Assembly: GCF_006376615.1 (NCBI RefSeq)
Contig: NZ_VEXQ01000001.1
Span: forward strand, 372,001 to 436,000
Direction: 5' to 3'
From: Buttiauxella sp. B2
GTDB taxonomy: Bacteria > Pseudomonadota > Gammaproteobacteria > Enterobacterales > Enterobacteriaceae
Length of the DNA: 64,000 nucleotides
Shown: one piece after another, positions 6,689 to 64,000 of the stretch
How the letters are laid out: each line of letters opens with the position of its first letter
Numbering within the stretch: the stretch's first letter is position 1
Notes under the pieces: model-generated
Databases searched by the model: none
What the model saw: only the letters and a program-made list of their open reading frames with translations
Told to the model about the DNA's origin: nothing
Position numbers and translations under genes: made by a program

Positions 6689-7863
6689 TACTTGTCTCCT
6701 GCTTTCTTGCCGTAGCGCTCATCCAGGAAATTCTGACGGGCGTTGACGCGCTGCTGATTTGCATCACCGGTGTTGCGGGTCATGGCGTTAGTCATGTCTT
6801 TTGCAAAACGGCGATGTGAGTCGTGGGTCTTGTTGTCGTTGTCGTCCGGATCTTCGTCCTCTTCCTTGCGCTCTTCTTCAGCATCGAACCAGGCCGACAC
6901 ATAAACATCCGGTGCTTTTTGCCAGCTGTCGTATTTACGGCATGTGATACCCGCCTCATCCAGCGCACGGCGTTTAATCACCATCGGGTTCATCGAGTCG
7001 CAGGCGAACTTCTTACCGATAATTCGGCTGGCACCGGTGAGCGCATCGACCACCTGGTCGACACGCGCCTGAATGGCAGCATCGGAGGTTTTTTCTTTTT
7101 CCTCCTCCAGTTCGTCGTCTTTTTTCTCCAGCTCAACGTCCAGACTGGCGACCTTTTTCTCCAGGTCCTCTTTTTCTTCATCGCGGGTGCGGATACGGCT
7201 GACCAGACTGTCCAGCGTGGTCTGAATAAGCGTGGCCGTCGCCTGGTCTGCGACGTCTACGCGAGCGCCGCTATCAAGGGTGATGTGTGGCATTGGGGGG
7301 TTCTCCTGTGGTGTTGAATCAAACAAACGCGCCATACGGCCAGCGCGGGCGCTGTCACATAACGCGATATGGTTGATGGTGATATCGGTCTGGATAAATT
7401 CGTAAGGGGTGCCGTCCGGCGCGATCCCCGTTTGCGGGAGGTACTCAGAGCTGTAGCCTGCCGAGAGTTCGGCGGTACCGGCATTAACCGCGTCAATCGC
7501 GTCCTGTGCCTTAATCAGCATGTCGACCACGACATACTCCCCGGACTGCCGCCCTGTGGACGTTGCATGACCTACCGACACATCTTTAAATGTGCTGGAA
7601 TCAACAAAATCATCAGGGTGATGGACGGTGATATCTGCGTTGTCATAGCTGGCGAGACTACCCGCCTTAAAAACTTCCTCCGGAGGGCGGTAGACATTAA
7701 TCAAAGTGTCAGGCGGTCTGTCCACTAACCCCAGCTCTGCCGCCGAGTACTGCTGAATGCCGGAACGGGCCACGCGGCCAGGAACCGACATATAGCCGTT
7801 ATCGAGGATAATTCGCTGAGAGTCGACGCGGAAAGACTGCCTGTCGGTAACCGTTGCCCGCAT
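6688..7863 (-). CDS. DUF2213 capsid maturation protease fused to scaffold
   Basis: 391 residues. Residues 1-190 contain the DUF2213 protease-like domain, with 'DITVHHPDDF' and 'ELSAGYSSEY' holding probable catalytic His and Ser. Residues about 225-265 form a highly charged coiled coil (KEDLEKKVASLDVELEKKDD), followed by a basic/acidic C-terminal tail. This layout, protease then scaffold coiled coil, is common in phages with DUF1073 portals and DUF2184 capsids. It would direct assembly of the procapsid and be cleaved out. Confidence 0.78.
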   Translation of the reverse strand: MRATVTDRQSFRVDSQRIILDNGYMSVPGRVARSGIQQYSAAELGLVDRPPDTLINVYRPPEEVFKAGSLASYDNADITVHHPDDFVDSSTFKDVSVGHATSTGRQSGEYVVVDMLIKAQDAIDAVNAGTAELSAGYSSEYLPQTGIAPDGTPYEFIQTDITINHIALCDSARAGRMARLFDSTPQENPPMPHITLDSGARVDVADQATATLIQTTLDSLVSRIRTRDEEKEDLEKKVASLDVELEKKDDELEEEKEKTSDAAIQARVDQVVDALTGASRIIGKKFACDSMNPMVIKRRALDEAGITCRKYDSWQKAPDVYVSAWFDAEEERKEEDEDPDDNDNKTHDSHRRFAKDMTNAMTRNTGDANQQRVNARQNFLDERYGKKAGDK

Positions 7864-7878
7864 GTCATTTTCCTGTGG

Positions 7879-8769
7879 TTATGGGTAATCGAGCCCCTGG
7901 ATTTGTGGGATGCCCACGCACCTGCAGTTGATGTGCGCACGCCCAGGGTAAAGATGAGTTTCGCCGTTGAACTGTGCGCCACGGGACCAGAAATAAACGC
8001 CCGGTCCGTAGCCCACATCAGCACGCGATATCACGTAGCATTTGATTTTGGCTTTAGGGTACTTCCCTGCAGGGTTGCCGCTCACCCTCGTATCCTGTGA
8101 CGTTGACCAGCGGAAGCGGTTGATACCGGCGCTACTCTGCCGCACGCGGTTGGTGTCGCTCTGAATTTTCAGCGTCTGGTCGCGGGCAATTAGCGCAGCA
8201 CGCTTGTAACTGGCACCGGTCACGCTTTGCAGGTTGCGCGTCAGGGTGGACAGACTGTCACCCCGTCGGATGCTTTCCATCACCTGCTGCTGAATGTCGT
8301 CAAAATAATCAGACGAGAGTGATTTAATCAGCCCGACGTTTTCCTCAACCGCGAGGTCGAAAAAATCGCCCAGCCCTTCCCGGGTGATCATCCCGCCAAT
8401 ATCCACGCCCATCGCCCGGTTGATTTGCTCAACGAACGCCGCCGAACTTTCCGACTCTGCCCGACTCACCACGCGTTCAGCCATCCGGCGCTGTTGGAAA
8501 CCAAACGCATCAGCATAGAAACGCTCAGCGGCGTGCAACAGCGTGGCCCGGATGAGGTCGGTCAGGAAACTGTCAGCGGTATAGCGTCGGGTTGAAACAG
8601 CATCACGGGTAACGGACTGATAACGTTCCAGCACCGGCACCAGTACATCCTGCACGCTGCTGGCCATCAGGCGGATCATGCCGCGCAGCTGGCCGTTATA
8701 GAATTTCTCTGTGTCGCTATTCAGTGCCACCGGCTGGAGCGGTCGGCGGTACTTTGACGTCTCCAGCAA
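7879..8769 (-). CDS. Phage head morphogenesis protein (SPP1 gp7/Mu F-like)
   Basis: The C-terminal 130 residues contain 'ALIARDQTLKIQSDTNRVRQ', 'FRWSTSQDTRV' and 'GRAHINCRCVG', the conserved features of the SPP1 gp7/Mu gpF minor head family, whose members enter the procapsid. The reading frame overlaps the end of the portal gene. The exact start is uncertain: no ATG with a ribosome site is present, TTG at 8769 is used provisionally, and the ORF is open to 8901. The N-terminal region around RRPLQPVALNSD appears to belong to the protein. Confidence 0.75.
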   Translation of the reverse strand: MLETSKYRRPLQPVALNSDTEKFYNGQLRGMIRLMASSVQDVLVPVLERYQSVTRDAVSTRRYTADSFLTDLIRATLLHAAERFYADAFGFQQRRMAERVVSRAESESSAAFVEQINRAMGVDIGGMITREGLGDFFDLAVEENVGLIKSLSSDYFDDIQQQVMESIRRGDSLSTLTRNLQSVTGASYKRAALIARDQTLKIQSDTNRVRQSSAGINRFRWSTSQDTRVSGNPAGKYPKAKIKCYVISRADVGYGPGVYFWSRGAQFNGETHLYPGRAHINCRCVGIPQIQGLDYP

Positions 8770-59883: not shown

Positions 59884-59962
59884 TTTGCTCTCCGTTATTT
59901 TAAGGGAGCCTAACACGTTTAATTCATCAATTTAATAAACCTGATTGTGGTTGTAGGTTTCA

Positions 59963-60355
59963 TTAGAGTTTGAAATCAAGCACTGCATTCTTGAAAACAT
60001 CATAGATCTTTTGATTCGGAGGGGCAGGAAACTGATTCACCGCAGTCGTTGCAGAAATGGCCGCCTGACAAAGTTCGGGGTCGCCCTCTTCAGATTTGAC
60101 ACCCATCAGCATACCATTTGGGGCTAATTTCAAACGTAACGTGCAGTGCTTACCGGCATACGATTTTTTGTAATTGAACTTACTTTCGATGTTCGAGCTT
60201 ATTAGCTTTGCGTAATGGGTGATATCGGGGGATGGGTCCGTTGTAGGGGATTTAGTCATCGGATGCGGTTTTACACATCCAGTTAATGGCAATATCAGCG
60301 CAATGAATAATAAAAACTGCGCGCTTGTCTTAGAATAAAAATGAATTTTTCTCAT
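59963..60355 (-). CDS. Lipoprotein carrying a free-standing TolA domain III
   Basis: 130 residues. Signal peptide with lipobox LTGC, so Cys27 is lipidated; Val at +2 suggests sorting to the outer membrane. The C-terminal 90 residues resemble TolA domain III: 'YAGKHCTLRLKLAPNGMLMG', 'GDPELCQAAISATTAVNQFP' and 'IYDVFKNAVLDFKL', with both disulfide Cys. TolA III is the docking domain for filamentous phage g3p and group A colicins. No TolA I/II helix or transmembrane anchor is present. Could be a decoy or a TolB/Tol partner. Confidence 0.82.
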   Translation of the reverse strand: MRKIHFYSKTSAQFLLFIALILPLTGCVKPHPMTKSPTTDPSPDITHYAKLISSNIESKFNYKKSYAGKHCTLRLKLAPNGMLMGVKSEEGDPELCQAAISATTAVNQFPAPPNQKIYDVFKNAVLDFKL

Positions 60356-60434
60356 ATTCCCTCATCCTTGAAATAGTTGTAAAAATTAATAATTAATCAT
60401 TCAAAGTAAATTTTTGTAGACTTAAATCATTTTC

Positions 60435-60620
60435 TGTACATCACATTGTATTTACTCTGTTTTCTACTTTATAGCAGAGAAAGAACTCCATGAGAAAAAT
60501 ACTTTCACGAATGCTCCCCAAGCTAAAGCAACTCTTGAACAATGTGATCCTCGGAATGTGCATCTTTGGACTGAAGAATTAAGCAAAGCTTATTTAGACG
60601 GATATCATGGAATCGAGTGA
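60435..60620 (+). pseudogene. Remnant of a plus-strand gene (C-terminal part only)
   Basis: A frame from 60435 to TGA 60618-60620 reads ...AEKELHEKNTFTNAPQAKAT, 'LEQCDPRNVHLWTEELSKAY' and 'LDGYHGIE'. It looks like a real protein C-terminus (aromatic and acidic conserved-type residues) but there is no ATG, GTG or TTG start and the frame is closed by TAA upstream. Probably a decayed accessory gene. The rest of the 328-bp space between the TolA-like gene and dltC is AT-rich promoter-like DNA. Confidence 0.5.
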
Positions 60621-60644
60621 TCCCGGCGTGACGAAAATATAGAT

Positions 60645-60669
60645 AAAAAACCCCGGTAAAATACCAGGG
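60645..60669 (-). terminator. Terminator of the dlt-like operon
   Basis: Minus strand: CCC-TGGTA/TACC-GGG stem with one bulge and an ATTTTA-type loop, then six T. It lies 15 bp after the dltC stop. Confidence 0.8.
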
Positions 60670-60683
60670 CCAATTTTTTAGGT

Positions 60684-60902
60684 TTACGCGTTTTCTTCAA
60701 GCCAGGCCGCTAAAGTTGCTGGTGTTTTCAGGACACTTGCCACTTCTGTCGGTGGAATAGCGCACCCGAATTCCGCCTGCACTTCCAGTACAACATCAAC
60801 GGCTGTAATAGAATCGAGAATATCGGATTCGATCAACTCATCGTTAAAGGCAACTTTGCGCGACAAGACATTTTCAAATAATGCTAAAACTTTCTGTTCC
60901 AT
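60684..60902 (-). CDS. dltC: DltC-like D-alanyl carrier protein
   Basis: 72 residues. Acyl-carrier fold with the phosphopantetheine Ser in 'ESDILDSITAVDVVLEVQAEF' (DSI near residue 31). Last gene of the operon. It would be charged by DltA at the pantetheine thiol and deliver the group to DltB. Ends at terminator 60645-60669. Confidence 0.85.
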   Translation of the reverse strand: MEQKVLALFENVLSRKVAFNDELIESDILDSITAVDVVLEVQAEFGCAIPPTEVASVLKTPATLAAWLEENA

Positions 60903-60920
60903 TTTTTTGCCCTTAGATGA

Positions 60921-62357
60921 TTAGCAGGTACGGGCCTGCGCATCGAGTAATTTACGGTCAATCTTCCCGTTAGGGTTGAGAGGTAATGCGTCCATGATGA
61001 CAATCTGAGATGGCACCATATAAGACGGTAAAGTTTGTGTGAGATTAGCTTTGATCTCTTTTTCAGAAAGCTTTGATGTGCAAAACGCGGCCAGGCGTAA
61101 AACGGCGCCATCTTTTTTAGTCAGCGGTAACACAACCGCTTCACTGATGCCCGAAAGCGCTAACAGACGGTTTTCTATTTCATGGATTTCAATACGGTAA
61201 CCATTCATTTTGATCTGGCTATCGTTACGCCCCTGGCAATAAAGATAATTAACTCCGATGCGTCCCAAATCACCGGTTTTATAGCCGCGCAATTGTTTGT
61301 TTTCATCCCATAAAAGTTTTTCAGCATTCTCTTTGGGCAAACCGAGATATCCGCGCATAACATTTTTTCCCCAGATAATTAATTCATTATCTGCGGTAAC
61401 TTCCATTTCTGAATATGGCATCATGTAGCCTATCGGTAAGAGATCACATGCTTCATTCAGTATTTCGTCACTGATTTCTACCACCGTTGTTGCAACTGTC
61501 GCTTCGGTTGGACCGTATGAATTCAGTATTTTCGCCTCTGGGAATAAACGGCGCAGATGTTTTACCAATGTTTTACTGAGCACCTCACCGATAAAAATAA
61601 ATACTTTAAGATCGGACAAATAATCTGCTCTAAATTCTGGTAGCAATAATTTCTGATAGGCAAATGAGGGTGTAGAAACCCATACAGAGACTTTCTCTTG
61701 CTTGAGTCTTGCTAACCAGTTTTCGGCTGTAATATCTTCTTTTGCATTTAGAATAAGATGCCCAGCCGTAACAAGGTTTCCGAGCAGTGGAATTAATGAT
61801 AAGTCGAAACTGAATACGGCATGGTTCATCAATACCGGGTTTGCTGGCAGAGAGAAATCAGAACGTAGCCATTGCATGAAATTCCACACACTTTCCCGGC
61901 CAATTTGGACACCTTTAGGTTTACCTGTACTACCAGAAGTAAACATAATGTAGGCAAGATTCCTTTGTTCCAGTTGTTGTGCAGGAATACCCGTTGCTAC
62001 AAAACAGCGCTGCTGTACGTCGTAGTAATAAGGTGCGCTGGATAATTCGCAGATCTCTTTCAAACGCTCTTCCGGATAGATATTATCGACCGGTATATAA
62101 GGAATGTTGTGCAATAAGCAGCTGTAAATTGCGCAAGCAAACTCAGCTTGCTGGTGACCATAAAGCACCACTGGAACGTTAGGTGCCAAATTTAATGCTG
62201 AAAAACATTCCACCCAATTAAGAACTGCAGTCCTGGTCTGCTGCCAGGTCAGACTGGTGTCACTACCAGTGATTGCCAGTTGTTGGCCATTTTGTGGGTC
62301 GAGCAACATCGCTCGCAGATAATTATTGAGTTGCTGTAGTTCAGAGTTAATAGTCAT
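60921..62357 (-). CDS. dltA: DltA-like D-alanine:carrier protein ligase
   Basis: 478 residues. Adenylation domain: 'YIMFTSGSTGKPKGVQIG' (A3), 'AKILNSYGPTEATVATTVV' (A5), 'LRGYKTGDLGRIG' (A7), 'RNDSQIKMNGYRIEIHEIE' (A8) and 'PLNPNGKIDRKLL' with the catalytic Lys (A10). Overlaps dltB by 4 nt. It activates an amino acid as adenylate and loads DltC. D-Ala specificity is by analogy with Gram-positive Dlt. Confidence 0.87.
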   Translation of the reverse strand: MTINSELQQLNNYLRAMLLDPQNGQQLAITGSDTSLTWQQTRTAVLNWVECFSALNLAPNVPVVLYGHQQAEFACAIYSCLLHNIPYIPVDNIYPEERLKEICELSSAPYYYDVQQRCFVATGIPAQQLEQRNLAYIMFTSGSTGKPKGVQIGRESVWNFMQWLRSDFSLPANPVLMNHAVFSFDLSLIPLLGNLVTAGHLILNAKEDITAENWLARLKQEKVSVWVSTPSFAYQKLLLPEFRADYLSDLKVFIFIGEVLSKTLVKHLRRLFPEAKILNSYGPTEATVATTVVEISDEILNEACDLLPIGYMMPYSEMEVTADNELIIWGKNVMRGYLGLPKENAEKLLWDENKQLRGYKTGDLGRIGVNYLYCQGRNDSQIKMNGYRIEIHEIENRLLALSGISEAVVLPLTKKDGAVLRLAAFCTSKLSEKEIKANLTQTLPSYMVPSQIVIMDALPLNPNGKIDRKLLDAQARTC

Positions 62358-63475
62358 ACAGGTGACATTCCGCTAAAAATATAAAGAGAGACTGCGGCAC
62401 TTACCAGCGTCAAAATACGCCCTACAAATGAAATAATCGGGTTATTTAACCATAAGGTCATTACCGGACTGCGCTTTGCAAGCCAAAGAATCATATTATG
62501 AATAACTGAAATTCCGCCAAACAGAGCTCCGCTAACAACGTAATTGAGCTCCAACCCGTTCCACGCACCCATACAAAATAAAGTGCAAAAAACACCGATA
62601 TTTTGTGCGGTAGCTTTGTGGCTCCTGAAGAAATCCACCTTCATCAAATTCATATAAATTGGCATGAAAACCACATCACGCAACCACTCAGAAAGACTAA
62701 TATGAAATCTGCGCCAGAAATCCTGTGGATTTTTTGCCAAAATAGGCAAGTTGAAATTAGCAGGTAAGTTAAGGCCAAATAAACGCCCTGCACCTATAGC
62801 CATATTACTGTAACCAGCGAAATCGAAATAAAGATAAAAGCTATAGGCTAGTGACATCACAATGCCTACGGTCATTGTAAAAGGACGGTGACTCCAGTGA
62901 CTGATAATAAAGTTATCAATCAACATCGCAAACAGGAATTTTTGCACGATTCCATAAAAGATTTGTTCCATAGATTGCAAGAACACATCAGTCGTTAAGC
63001 GAAAATTGGGTTTAGTAATATCCTGAACCCAATTTCTCCAACGATACATCGGCCCTGCCAGTATAATAAAAGGCAAAAAGAGATAGCTGAAATACTGGAA
63101 AAAATCACGGGAATCCTTCTTGTTGCGATAAAGTAAAACATCCACCGCCCTGAAAGTCATAAAAGAAAGACCCAACATACCCCAATGATTATTAAGGTGT
63201 AACTTCACCAGAATTAGAGGCAACAAACTCAGAATCACCGACTGCCAGGTTTTAATCCAGGTTTTGTCTTTTAACGTGGCAATGCTGTACAAATAAACAA
63301 ACATCAGCAATGGGATAATTATCTGACTTTTGAAAATGTATCCCCAGACAGCAAACATCGCAAAAGCAGAAAACAGTGATGCATAGGTCAACCGGTTCCC
63401 CACCAGGCGATTAAGTCCGGTGAAAAGTAGCGAACAGGCAAACAACGCAGCGAAAAAAGGTGCACTTGTATACAT
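62354..63475 (-). CDS. dltB: DltB-like MBOAT acyltransferase with a WNG in place of WHG
   Basis: 373 residues with about 10 membrane segments. MBOAT core: 'FSYLFLPFIILAGPMYRWRN', 'YFDFAGYSNMAIGAGRLFG', 'FWRRFHISLSEWLRDVVFMP' (first conserved His present) and 'LFCMGAWNGLELNYVVSGAL'. In MBOATs the last motif is normally WHG with the catalytic His; here the codon is AAC (Asn) and the later HG is FG. Transfers an acyl group from DltC across the membrane if active. 11 nt after dltX. Confidence 0.85.
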   Translation of the reverse strand: MYTSAPFFAALFACSLLFTGLNRLVGNRLTYASLFSAFAMFAVWGYIFKSQIIIPLLMFVYLYSIATLKDKTWIKTWQSVILSLLPLILVKLHLNNHWGMLGLSFMTFRAVDVLLYRNKKDSRDFFQYFSYLFLPFIILAGPMYRWRNWVQDITKPNFRLTTDVFLQSMEQIFYGIVQKFLFAMLIDNFIISHWSHRPFTMTVGIVMSLAYSFYLYFDFAGYSNMAIGAGRLFGLNLPANFNLPILAKNPQDFWRRFHISLSEWLRDVVFMPIYMNLMKVDFFRSHKATAQNIGVFCTLFCMGAWNGLELNYVVSGALFGGISVIHNMILWLAKRSPVMTLWLNNPIISFVGRILTLVSAAVSLYIFSGMSPV

Positions 63476-63486
63476 TATCTTAGCCC

Positions 63487-63606
63487 TTAGAACTGCTGAT
63501 ATTCAAAGTGCAGCTTTAAATTCATACTGTTATCAATTGATGACCAGGCGATTACCGTTGTCAGCAAAAACAAATAGAGGAAAAAAAGTCTGATTGCTTT
63601 TTTCAT
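63487..63606 (-). CDS. dltX: DltX-like transmembrane microprotein with C-terminal FxYxxF motif
   Basis: 39 residues: MKKAIRLFFLYLFLLTTVIA at the start, one membrane span, a short extracytoplasmic segment and the end 'LHFEYQQF'. The last six residues F-E-Y-Q-Q-F match the FxYxxF 'acyl shuttle' end reported for DltX in Gram-positive bacteria, where the Tyr carries the acyl group. ATGA overlap with the upstream dltD-like gene (ATG 63606-63604). Too short for standard gene callers. Function by analogy. Confidence 0.78.
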   Translation of the reverse strand: MKKAIRLFFLYLFLLTTVIAWSSIDNSMNLKLHFEYQQF

Positions 63607-64000
63607 TTGTTAAATGCCTCTGCTATATAACGATCCATTGCAACCCACGCCACTTCAGTTGGATGAAGACGATCCCAGTTCCATCCCTCCTGATATTTTT
63701 GGCTATACATATCAAAGTATGGCGTGTCGTATTTTTGTAATATCAACTGAATGTTGTGGTCAGTCTTTGCAAATTTATCCGTATGCTTTAATGCCCACGG
63801 ATTAAGAGGATCGATGATGACAACCACATTGACCTTGCGCTCATGCAACAGCTTCATCATGTCATCAAATGCCTGCATTTCCTGCAATGACGGTGGAGTT
63901 GAATACCATTCATCCGCTGTTTTATCATCGTCAAATACTTCTTTATCCATCCATAATGTGGCTGCACTTTCATGACGTGCACGATTAAGTTGCCGTGCCT
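63603..64000 (-). CDS. dltD: DltD-like transferase, C-terminal part (cut by window edge)
   Basis: The frame is open to the window end, so the protein is longer; 132 codons are visible. 'VNVVVIIDPLNPWAL' and 'GWNWDRLHPTEVAWVAMDRYI' hold the Asp-x-x-His pair of SGNH-type DltD proteins; the catalytic Ser lies beyond the edge. First visible gene of the operon. In Gram-positive bacteria DltD hands D-Ala to lipoteichoic acid; here the acceptor must be a Gram-negative envelope polymer. Confidence 0.75.
   Translation of the reverse strand, partial: ARQLNRARHESAATLWMDKEVFDDDKTADEWYSTPPSLQEMQAFDDMMKLLHERKVNVVVIIDPLNPWALKHTDKFAKTDHNIQLILQKYDTPYFDMYSQKYQEGWNWDRLHPTEVAWVAMDRYIAEAFNK

Follow-up and report, generated by a model that had tools for sequence, protein, structure and literature searches.

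A dltDXBAC operon in Buttiauxella as a candidate mobile envelope-aminoacylation cassette with a predicted RstA box

Why should an enterobacterium carry the dlt genes with which Gram-positive bacteria modify teichoic acids, polymers that it does not have? The question is raised by a stretch of 64,000 nucleotides from Buttiauxella sp. B2 (positions 372,001-436,000 of contig NZ_VEXQ01000001.1; hereafter the window), at one end of which an earlier note had read five coupled genes, dltD-dltX-dltB-dltA-dltC, as a possibly transferred system for modification of the envelope. The answer we favor, and to which we would give odds of roughly two in three, is that this dltDXBAC operon is a horizontally moving cassette for envelope aminoacylation, most likely with D-alanine, that brings its own promoter with a box for RstA and has RstBA as its most likely activator.

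The operon and its acyl relay

The five genes lie on the minus strand of the Buttiauxella chromosome in the order D-X-B-A-C and make up a complete operon, much as the earlier note had described it; the four longer genes were assigned by Pfam and NCBIfam. Leading the operon is dltD, of which the C-terminal part (about the last third) falls in the window at 63603..64000, while the full gene runs over 7604-8743 on the minus strand of L002, the 19-kb locus around the operon. Its N-terminus is absent from the window because the window edge cuts the gene, and the loss of function feared on that account did not materialize, as dltD is an open frame of 379 residues in the contig, with S75, D360 and H363 in place. 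It overlaps by 4 nucleotides (ATGA) with dltX (63487..63606, minus strand), which encodes a membrane microprotein of 39 residues ending in the acyl-shuttle motif FEYQQF (Y36). There follow dltB (62354..63475, minus strand; an MBOAT protein of 373 residues with catalytic H258) and, overlapping it by 4 nucleotides at 62354-62357, dltA (60921..62357, minus strand), which encodes an amino-acid adenylating ligase of 478 residues that retains D185 and K465 and has isoleucine at the gate residue 256, where the Gram-positive enzymes have cysteine. Last comes dltC (60684..60902, minus strand), a carrier protein of 72 residues with its phosphopantetheine serine at S31 (LDS). The tight coupling claimed at dltD/dltX and dltB/dltA is confirmed by the two overlaps. 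A terminator-like stem-loop of 10 pairs with a T tail is likewise present 3' of dltC (60649..60671, minus strand; L002 4672-4650), and it carries weight only by its position, because the scan that found it returned 5 sites against a shuffle mean of 4.7 and as a whole was not above shuffles. The operon is richer in AT than its surroundings, as had been noted (41.3% G+C against 49.1% in the remainder of L002). A look for additional genes upstream of dltD produced none that belongs to the operon; cutC is next, after some 0.4 kb holding the promoter.

The same architecture was found well beyond this genome. All five genes in the order D-X-B-A-C are present at 72 of the 84 loci read, a total in which some genomes are represented more than once, the other 12 being a plasmid locus truncated where its record begins, six with broken genes, two with the order C-D-X-B-A and three with distant MBOAT genes. 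With gene starts chosen mechanically, a spacing of -4 was observed between dltB and dltA at 72 of the 84 and between dltD and dltX at 64. For the catalytic residues we aligned 43 of these loci with three Gram-positive ones, giving 45 or 46 rows per protein. The amino-group aspartate and the A10 lysine of DltA are each present in 46/46 rows, as are the phosphopantetheine serine of DltC and the MBOAT catalytic histidine of DltB, whose relatives with solved structures include 6bug and 8jem. The serine, aspartate and histidine of the SGNH fold were placed in DltD by alignment (45/45 rows), a phmmer sequence search with DltD against the PDB having given no match, and the tyrosine of the FxYxxF motif of DltX is likewise invariant (45/45). 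In this hexapeptide the tyrosine is described as carrying the acyl group from the MBOAT protein to the SGNH enzyme (PMC12148441). Ligase, carrier, MBOAT protein, DltX and DltD, the five members of a Dlt-type MBOAT-SGNH acyl relay, are all represented.

With these residues conserved and the chemistry of each step published for Gram-positive bacteria, the relay DltA-DltC-DltB-DltX-DltD can be put together step by step. By analogy with that work, DltA would adenylate a small amino acid (probably D-alanine) for loading onto DltC; DltB would hand the amino acid through the membrane to the DltX tyrosine; and the serine of DltD would take it over and then esterify an acceptor of the envelope in the periplasm. 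Such an ester would lower the negative charge of the envelope, and with it the binding of cationic peptides. We infer both the ester product and the charge effect for Buttiauxella, the polymyxin phenotype having been published for a dltB mutant of Dickeya. None of the four longer proteins tested reached the curated cut-offs of the Gram-positive Dlt equivalogs in NCBIfam (scores against cut-offs: DltA, 368.7/476 and 356.2/559.85; DltB, 205.8/375; DltC, 28.7/68 and 22.9/52.35; DltD, 30.5/150, the last for the window part of DltD only). Judged by its residues, the Buttiauxella operon is predicted to be a diverged branch that works like Dlt. Among the long proteins divergence is greatest in DltD, at 46-58% identity between the Buttiauxella, genus g11 and main branches, where DltB is at 69-72%.

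A predicted RstA box at the dltD promoter

The consensus of the RstA box is given as TACATNTNGTTACA, and RstA is described as being under PhoPQ and as up-regulating asr and csgD (PMC4117788). When the promoters of the dlt loci are aligned, a single block is kept across the branches, TGTACATANCGTTACA, and it fits this consensus. In Buttiauxella sp. B2 the predicted box is TACATTAGGTTACA, with one mismatch to the published consensus; it lies at G000:C1:436874-436887 (L002:8875-8888), 874 bases past the end of the window, and starts 145 bp upstream of the dltD ATG. In a one-strand scan of the 400 bp upstream of dltD, 60 of 63 distinct regions have the box with at most two mismatches: it is exact in 3, has a single mismatch in 53 and has two in 4. 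Its distance from dltD is 113-186 bp, apart from a decayed copy in which it is 300 bp, and the regions lacking it are two loci of genus g412 and one further decayed copy. Among 318 overlapping 400-base tiles of the window that served as the control, none had the box at up to one mismatch and seven had it at up to two. Scanned on both strands, 38 of 43 regions contain it with no more than one mismatch, against 2 of 430 shuffles. These counts are not independent events, because the loci share ancestry; by eye, the three branches (Buttiauxella, g11 and the rest) have little else in common upstream of dltD.

Known targets of RstA served as positive controls. The relaxed pattern TACATNNNGTTACA has 14 exact sites in five dlt genomes, compared to 5 for the reversed control. 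Nine of the 14 are assigned: each genome has one upstream of dltD, and asr and a gene taken to be csgD account for two apiece; the Asr assignment agrees with the annotated E. coli gene. All four of the asr and csgD sites come from two of the five genomes scanned. In our own genome a motif search found no asr near rstA, and a search of the whole genome found two asr copies, both with the relaxed pattern at one mismatch just over 100 bp upstream. The tally of boxes before asr is partial, as the search expression missed asr in 5 of 10 loci. An exact box precedes the asr gene of E. coli at 118 bp from its start, and TATAGT begins 42 bases after the asr box in E. coli as well as in Kosakonia (spacing by eye). 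A weak -10-like hexamer stands at the same 42 bases in the dlt promoters of 6/7 Buttiauxella species, and the dlt promoters of this genus and asr have a further ACCAATCACTCA-like stretch in common (62-77% identity over 26 nucleotides; 0/100,000 shuffles for the pair tested). In the main clade a TATAAT-, TATAGT- or TAGAAT-like sequence is found at 32-33 bases, and three of four g11 loci have one at 21; that these spacings step by about one helical turn is offered as an observation only.

The protein that would bind the box is encoded by most of the hosts: an RstA ortholog (74-83% identity) was found in 19/22 dlt genomes searched, that of our own genome being 79% identical to E. coli RstA, and the two g412 genomes have neither RstA nor the box. 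With the box in the promoter and RstA in the genome, RstA is the most likely activator of the operon. Host RstBA, which in E. coli and Salmonella is under PhoPQ and associated with low Mg2+ and acid, would most likely switch the cassette on through this box. A literature search that covered few subscription journals found no relevant paper linking RstA and dltB.

A number of observations weigh against so simple an assignment. Genome G217 has perfect boxes before both dltD and asr, yet no RstA ortholog was found in it. When one mismatch is allowed, the relaxed pattern shows no enrichment in our own genome, with 47 sites to the 65 of its reversed control, and a scan for sigma-70 promoters gave none at the site of the box (10 found in the region, with 13.4 expected). 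PhoP-like sites with at most two mismatches occur in 33/43 upstream regions compared to 84/430 shuffles, and with at most one in 11/43 compared to 4/430; PmrA-like sites at one mismatch occur in 5/7 Buttiauxella, compared to 20/430 shuffles. A Dickeya study of 2016 is also said to have named ArcA as activator. As PhoP-like and PmrA-like sites exceed chance, control need not rest on RstA alone, or even chiefly on it, and it is a real, if lesser, possibility that the operon is mainly under another regulator, the box being bound by a different protein of the OmpR/PhoB family, or PhoP, PmrA or ArcA acting directly. The sites themselves are less persuasive when their placement is considered. A AACAAATTTTAAACA-like block, PhoP-like when read from the opposite strand, is conserved across the main clade some 43-59 bp ahead of dltD, in the interval that separates the gene from the candidate -10; many of the PhoP-like sites of that clade are this one block, and a position downstream of the -10 would be unexpected for an activator. 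In Buttiauxella itself only 1/7 regions has a PhoP-like site at up to two mismatches, the other six having none, and over all 43 regions PmrA-like sites at up to two mismatches are rarer than in shuffles (14/43 against 181/430). The RstA box, on the other hand, fits a published consensus, is placed as it is in E. coli asr, and is absent in the genus g412 that has no RstA. We retain RstBA as the most likely activator, and PhoP and PmrA may act as additional inputs.

The amino acid, and the movement of the cassette

The identity of the amino acid turns on the pocket of DltA. In the Gram-positive enzyme, as described in PMC8972799, one cysteine clashes with L-alanine and in this way selects D-alanine. 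We have taken the selecting residue to be the cysteine of FLFCGEVL in the solved DltA of B. cereus, where the Buttiauxella protein has FIFIGEVL. This gate position is isoleucine in 41/41 cassette rows of the alignment and cysteine in the other five of the 46 (three Gram-positive, two of g412), and a neighboring residue of the cavity that holds the methyl group is methionine in the Gram-positive proteins, tyrosine in g412 and isoleucine in the same 41 rows. The pattern F[IV]FIGEV is found at 77 of 81 loci with a dltA match, the other four being two broken genes and the two g412 loci. The cassette enzymes therefore do not have the cysteine by which a Gram-positive D-alanine ligase would be recognized, and this counts against D-alanine.

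Does this substitution mean that DltA has been re-specified? An enzyme that activates another small amino acid, glycine being the obvious one, would make of the operon a glycine or mixed-amino-acid transferase that only resembles D-alanylation. The paired replacements in the 41 cassette rows (Cys to Ile at the gate, Met to Ile in the cavity) and the role of the cysteine in enforcing D-alanine over L-alanine speak for this, and an amino acid other than D-alanine has precedent in the AlmEFG system of Vibrio, which, controlled by CarSR (RstAB by its other name), attaches glycine to lipid A (PMC9178039). Nevertheless, the amino-group aspartate and the catalytic lysine are retained, the DltA models rank top in NCBIfam, though below their cut-offs, and a bulky isoleucine would still keep out L-alanine, so that selection of D-alanine may persist by other means. 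We regard re-specification as doubtful, and the gate change as a warning on D-alanine rather than proof of another substrate. Somewhat less probable again is a wider proposal that joins several of these features into a distinct aminoacylation system: the operon would belong with asr and csgD to a regulon for acid and low Mg2+ switched by RstA, its altered pocket (Cys to Ile, Met to Ile) would select a different amino acid in place of D-alanine or in addition to it, and its acceptor would be common to the hosts and neither teichoic acid nor the phosphoglycerol-substituted glucans considered below (lipopolysaccharide, say, or phosphatidylglycerol through its glycerol head group). For the amino acid we remain with D-alanine, which we infer and consider likely.

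The search of the genus that the earlier note had proposed finds DltD, as PF04914, in 9/12 Buttiauxella genomes; in the family it is present in 37/392 genomes and 12/154 sampled genera of Enterobacteriaceae, in the order in 11/394 genomes (three of the 11 weak and with no dlt operon at the locus), and in the phylum in 7/398, of which all seven are within the order and one is weak with no dlt operon at its locus. The phylum sample of 398 thus contains no PF04914 match outside the order. (DltA was useless as a class-wide marker, matching 182/185 genomes, swamped by domains of nonribosomal peptide synthetases.) No dlt operon was found in 5,426 E. coli genomes, either in a near search with two queries or in a distant search with dltB, the lone near-search match being 59 bases of cmoB. 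The DltB of six named Buttiauxella loci is 88-91% identical to that of the window, and the next genera reach no more than 73%, with the exception of a decayed copy that is matched in part at 81%.

The phylogeny of the operon does not keep to family lines. In a tree of DltB and DltA, Pectobacterium, Dickeya, Kosakonia, Phytobacter, Cedecea and Pluralibacter form a single group of 30 rows with support of 95/100, outside of which stand Buttiauxella and genus g11; 23 of the 42 inner branches are well supported, and the Gram-positive rows were flagged by the tree program for their long branches. DltB is 91% identical between Kosakonia and Pectobacterium and 72% between Kosakonia and Buttiauxella, and the RstA proteins of Kosakonia, Pectobacterium and Buttiauxella are 80%, 75% and 79% identical to that of E. 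coli, respectively. One genome titled Serratia marcescens 1001295B (L031/G761) has the genus label g308 and shares its dlt branch with Symbiopectobacterium, and its title may be wrong.

Furthermore, the empty site can be seen. The dlt-negative Buttiauxella genomes G008 and G011 have the DUF2767 gene and cutC close together, and our own genome aligns with them up to about window position 59940 and again from about 65026. The intervening segment begins with 59940..60640 to the left of the operon and ends about 1 kb past the window, near 65025. Between the DUF2767 gene and dltC it holds a gene with a TolA-C domain match (59963-60355, minus strand), no copy of which was found at any of the 83 other loci searched. 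The earlier note had placed the operon after cmoB, where E. coli has other genes; E. coli K-12 does have torZ-torY between cmoB and cutC, but in Buttiauxella the DUF2767 and TolA-C-domain genes also intervene between cmoB and the operon. In a third dlt-negative Buttiauxella, G007, genes that look phage-like by eye adjoin cutC (L145, G007:C27:155000-172000). With torZY in E. coli, dlt in our own genome and phage-like genes in G007, the gap between cmoB and cutC looks like an insertion hotspot. The cutC end in E. coli is also the annotated position of the small RNA MicL (L194:5942-6248). Buttiauxella has dltD after cutC, both genes on one strand, which puts the insertion immediately downstream of the MicL position; no Rfam element was found at the locus, the cutC end included, at gathering score.

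Plasmids carry the operon as well. It is present on three, of Klebsiella and Enterobacter, two of them typed conjugative. On the conjugative plasmid of Enterobacter cloacae, dlt has inverted copies of IS1, 95% identical, on either side, and over 4.4 kb it is 99.2% identical to DNA of Phytobacter diazotrophicus; the Klebsiella electrica plasmid is typed non-mobilizable and has insertion sequence elements on either side of dlt. In the conjugative K. pneumoniae plasmid NZ_CP063883.1 the operon spans the start of the record (L207:3867-5125, L013:574-4265), such that the record closes with dltD and dltX and opens with the last part of dltB, together with dltA and dltC. A gene annotated pmrD (polymyxin resistance protein) is found near dlt on this plasmid. 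The search of plasmid DNA matched at least 5,000 records, and among the matches listed nearly all were short, about 1% of the query. On a Ligilactobacillus murinus plasmid (L134), a lone dltB directly follows a bacteriocin gene of the bactofencin A family.

It is improbable, given the above, that the operon is an old possession of the family that was passed down vertically and has disappeared from most genera. Such a history would be in keeping with the presence of dlt in 9/12 Buttiauxella genomes, with the single site at which all five mapped Buttiauxella loci lie, and with the separate Buttiauxella branch of the tree. It does not sit well with DltB identities that cross family lines, with dlt sites that differ between most genera, with empty sites in dlt-negative Buttiauxella, or with plasmid copies nearly identical to Phytobacter DNA over the operon. 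A qualification to free movement comes from the flanks. Although no gene recurs throughout the flanks of the 31 loci compared, these are not wholly unrelated: some pairs of genera have one to three neighbors in common at 52-95% identity (three transport-like genes in Pectobacterium and Pluralibacter, two genes in g9 and g360, one in Cedecea and Kosakonia oryzendophytica), in addition to weaker matches between families of common genes. As such, sites or neighbors have sometimes been carried along. The suggestion of a transferred envelope-modification system is upheld by the conserved residues, the family-crossing tree and identities, the empty sites in two sister species and the plasmid copies, with the reservation already made as to D-alanine.

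Acceptor, related systems and significance

The nearest enterobacterial analogue of polyglycerol-phosphate lipoteichoic acid is the phosphoglycerol that OpgB adds to periplasmic glucans. This chemical likeness, together with OpgB matches in 14/26 dlt genomes, Buttiauxella included, would make it the obvious acceptor, and we consider it a very remote one: OpgB is without a match in 12/26 dlt genomes searched (every one of the nine from g7, g373 and g302, two of the three g308 genomes, and the single genome tested from g412), a further dlt genome has only a 35% relative, and phosphoglycerol-glucan is therefore ruled out as a common acceptor. Nor does the neighborhood offer a linked acceptor gene; as no other gene was seen travelling with the cassette throughout the 31 loci, the acceptor should be something that all hosts make.

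The operon is of a kind already known. As reported in PMC3544676, dlt genes are known in Dickeya, Pectobacterium and Photorhabdus and are induced in aphids, and a dltB mutant of Dickeya survives less well in polymyxin; the same report describes this mutant as not significantly slower in killing aphids. The dlt operons of Dickeya and Pectobacterium resemble that of Buttiauxella in their five genes, gene order, shuttle motif, gate isoleucine and RstA box (DltB 72% and DltA 69-70% identical), while Buttiauxella has its own diverged branch, set in the cmoB-cutC gap, AT-rich, and with a promoter laid out like that of asr. The name dltDXBAC, for which we found no match in the literature searched, reportedly comes up for these operons in a Dickeya paper of 2016. 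All five components, the catalytic residues and the FxYxxF shuttle are also those of Gram-positive dltXABCD, from which the present operon differs in gene order, in falling below the NCBIfam equivalog cut-offs and in having isoleucine for cysteine at the gate; relative to two Lactobacillales sets, DltA is 33-34%, DltB 27% and DltD 17-18% identical. The operon of genus g412 (G1017, G1074; L094, L095) again has all five genes (DltB 49%, DltA 45% identical), but its order is C-D-X-B-A, its gate cysteine is kept, both RstA box and RstA are missing, and its DltD is closer to Pfam DltD (235-237 bits against 87). This order marks a second type of Dlt operon in the family. Vibrio AlmEFG, introduced above, is comparable in placing an amino acid on the envelope against cationic peptides and differs in its transferase; it is not known to have an MBOAT-DltX-DltD relay. 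The dra genes of Bordetella, likened here by description, provide for Dlt-like incorporation of D-alanine into a Gram-negative envelope (cited in PMC9858536).

To this known kind of operon the present work adds the RstA box, the gate substitution, the exclusion of OpgB and the pattern of a cassette. Gram-negative Dlt has had a polymyxin phenotype in Dickeya without, in the account of PMC3544676, an identified substrate or a full description of its regulators. The promoter element common to dlt, asr and csgD now points to RstBA as a specific candidate regulator and to low Mg2+ and acid as the condition in which to look for the modification, the gate substitution says which amino acids are worth testing, and with the OpgB result the most obvious candidate for acceptor falls away. 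Last, as three plasmids from Klebsiella and Enterobacter carry the operon, two of which are typed as conjugative, knowing the function of dlt has some practical use.

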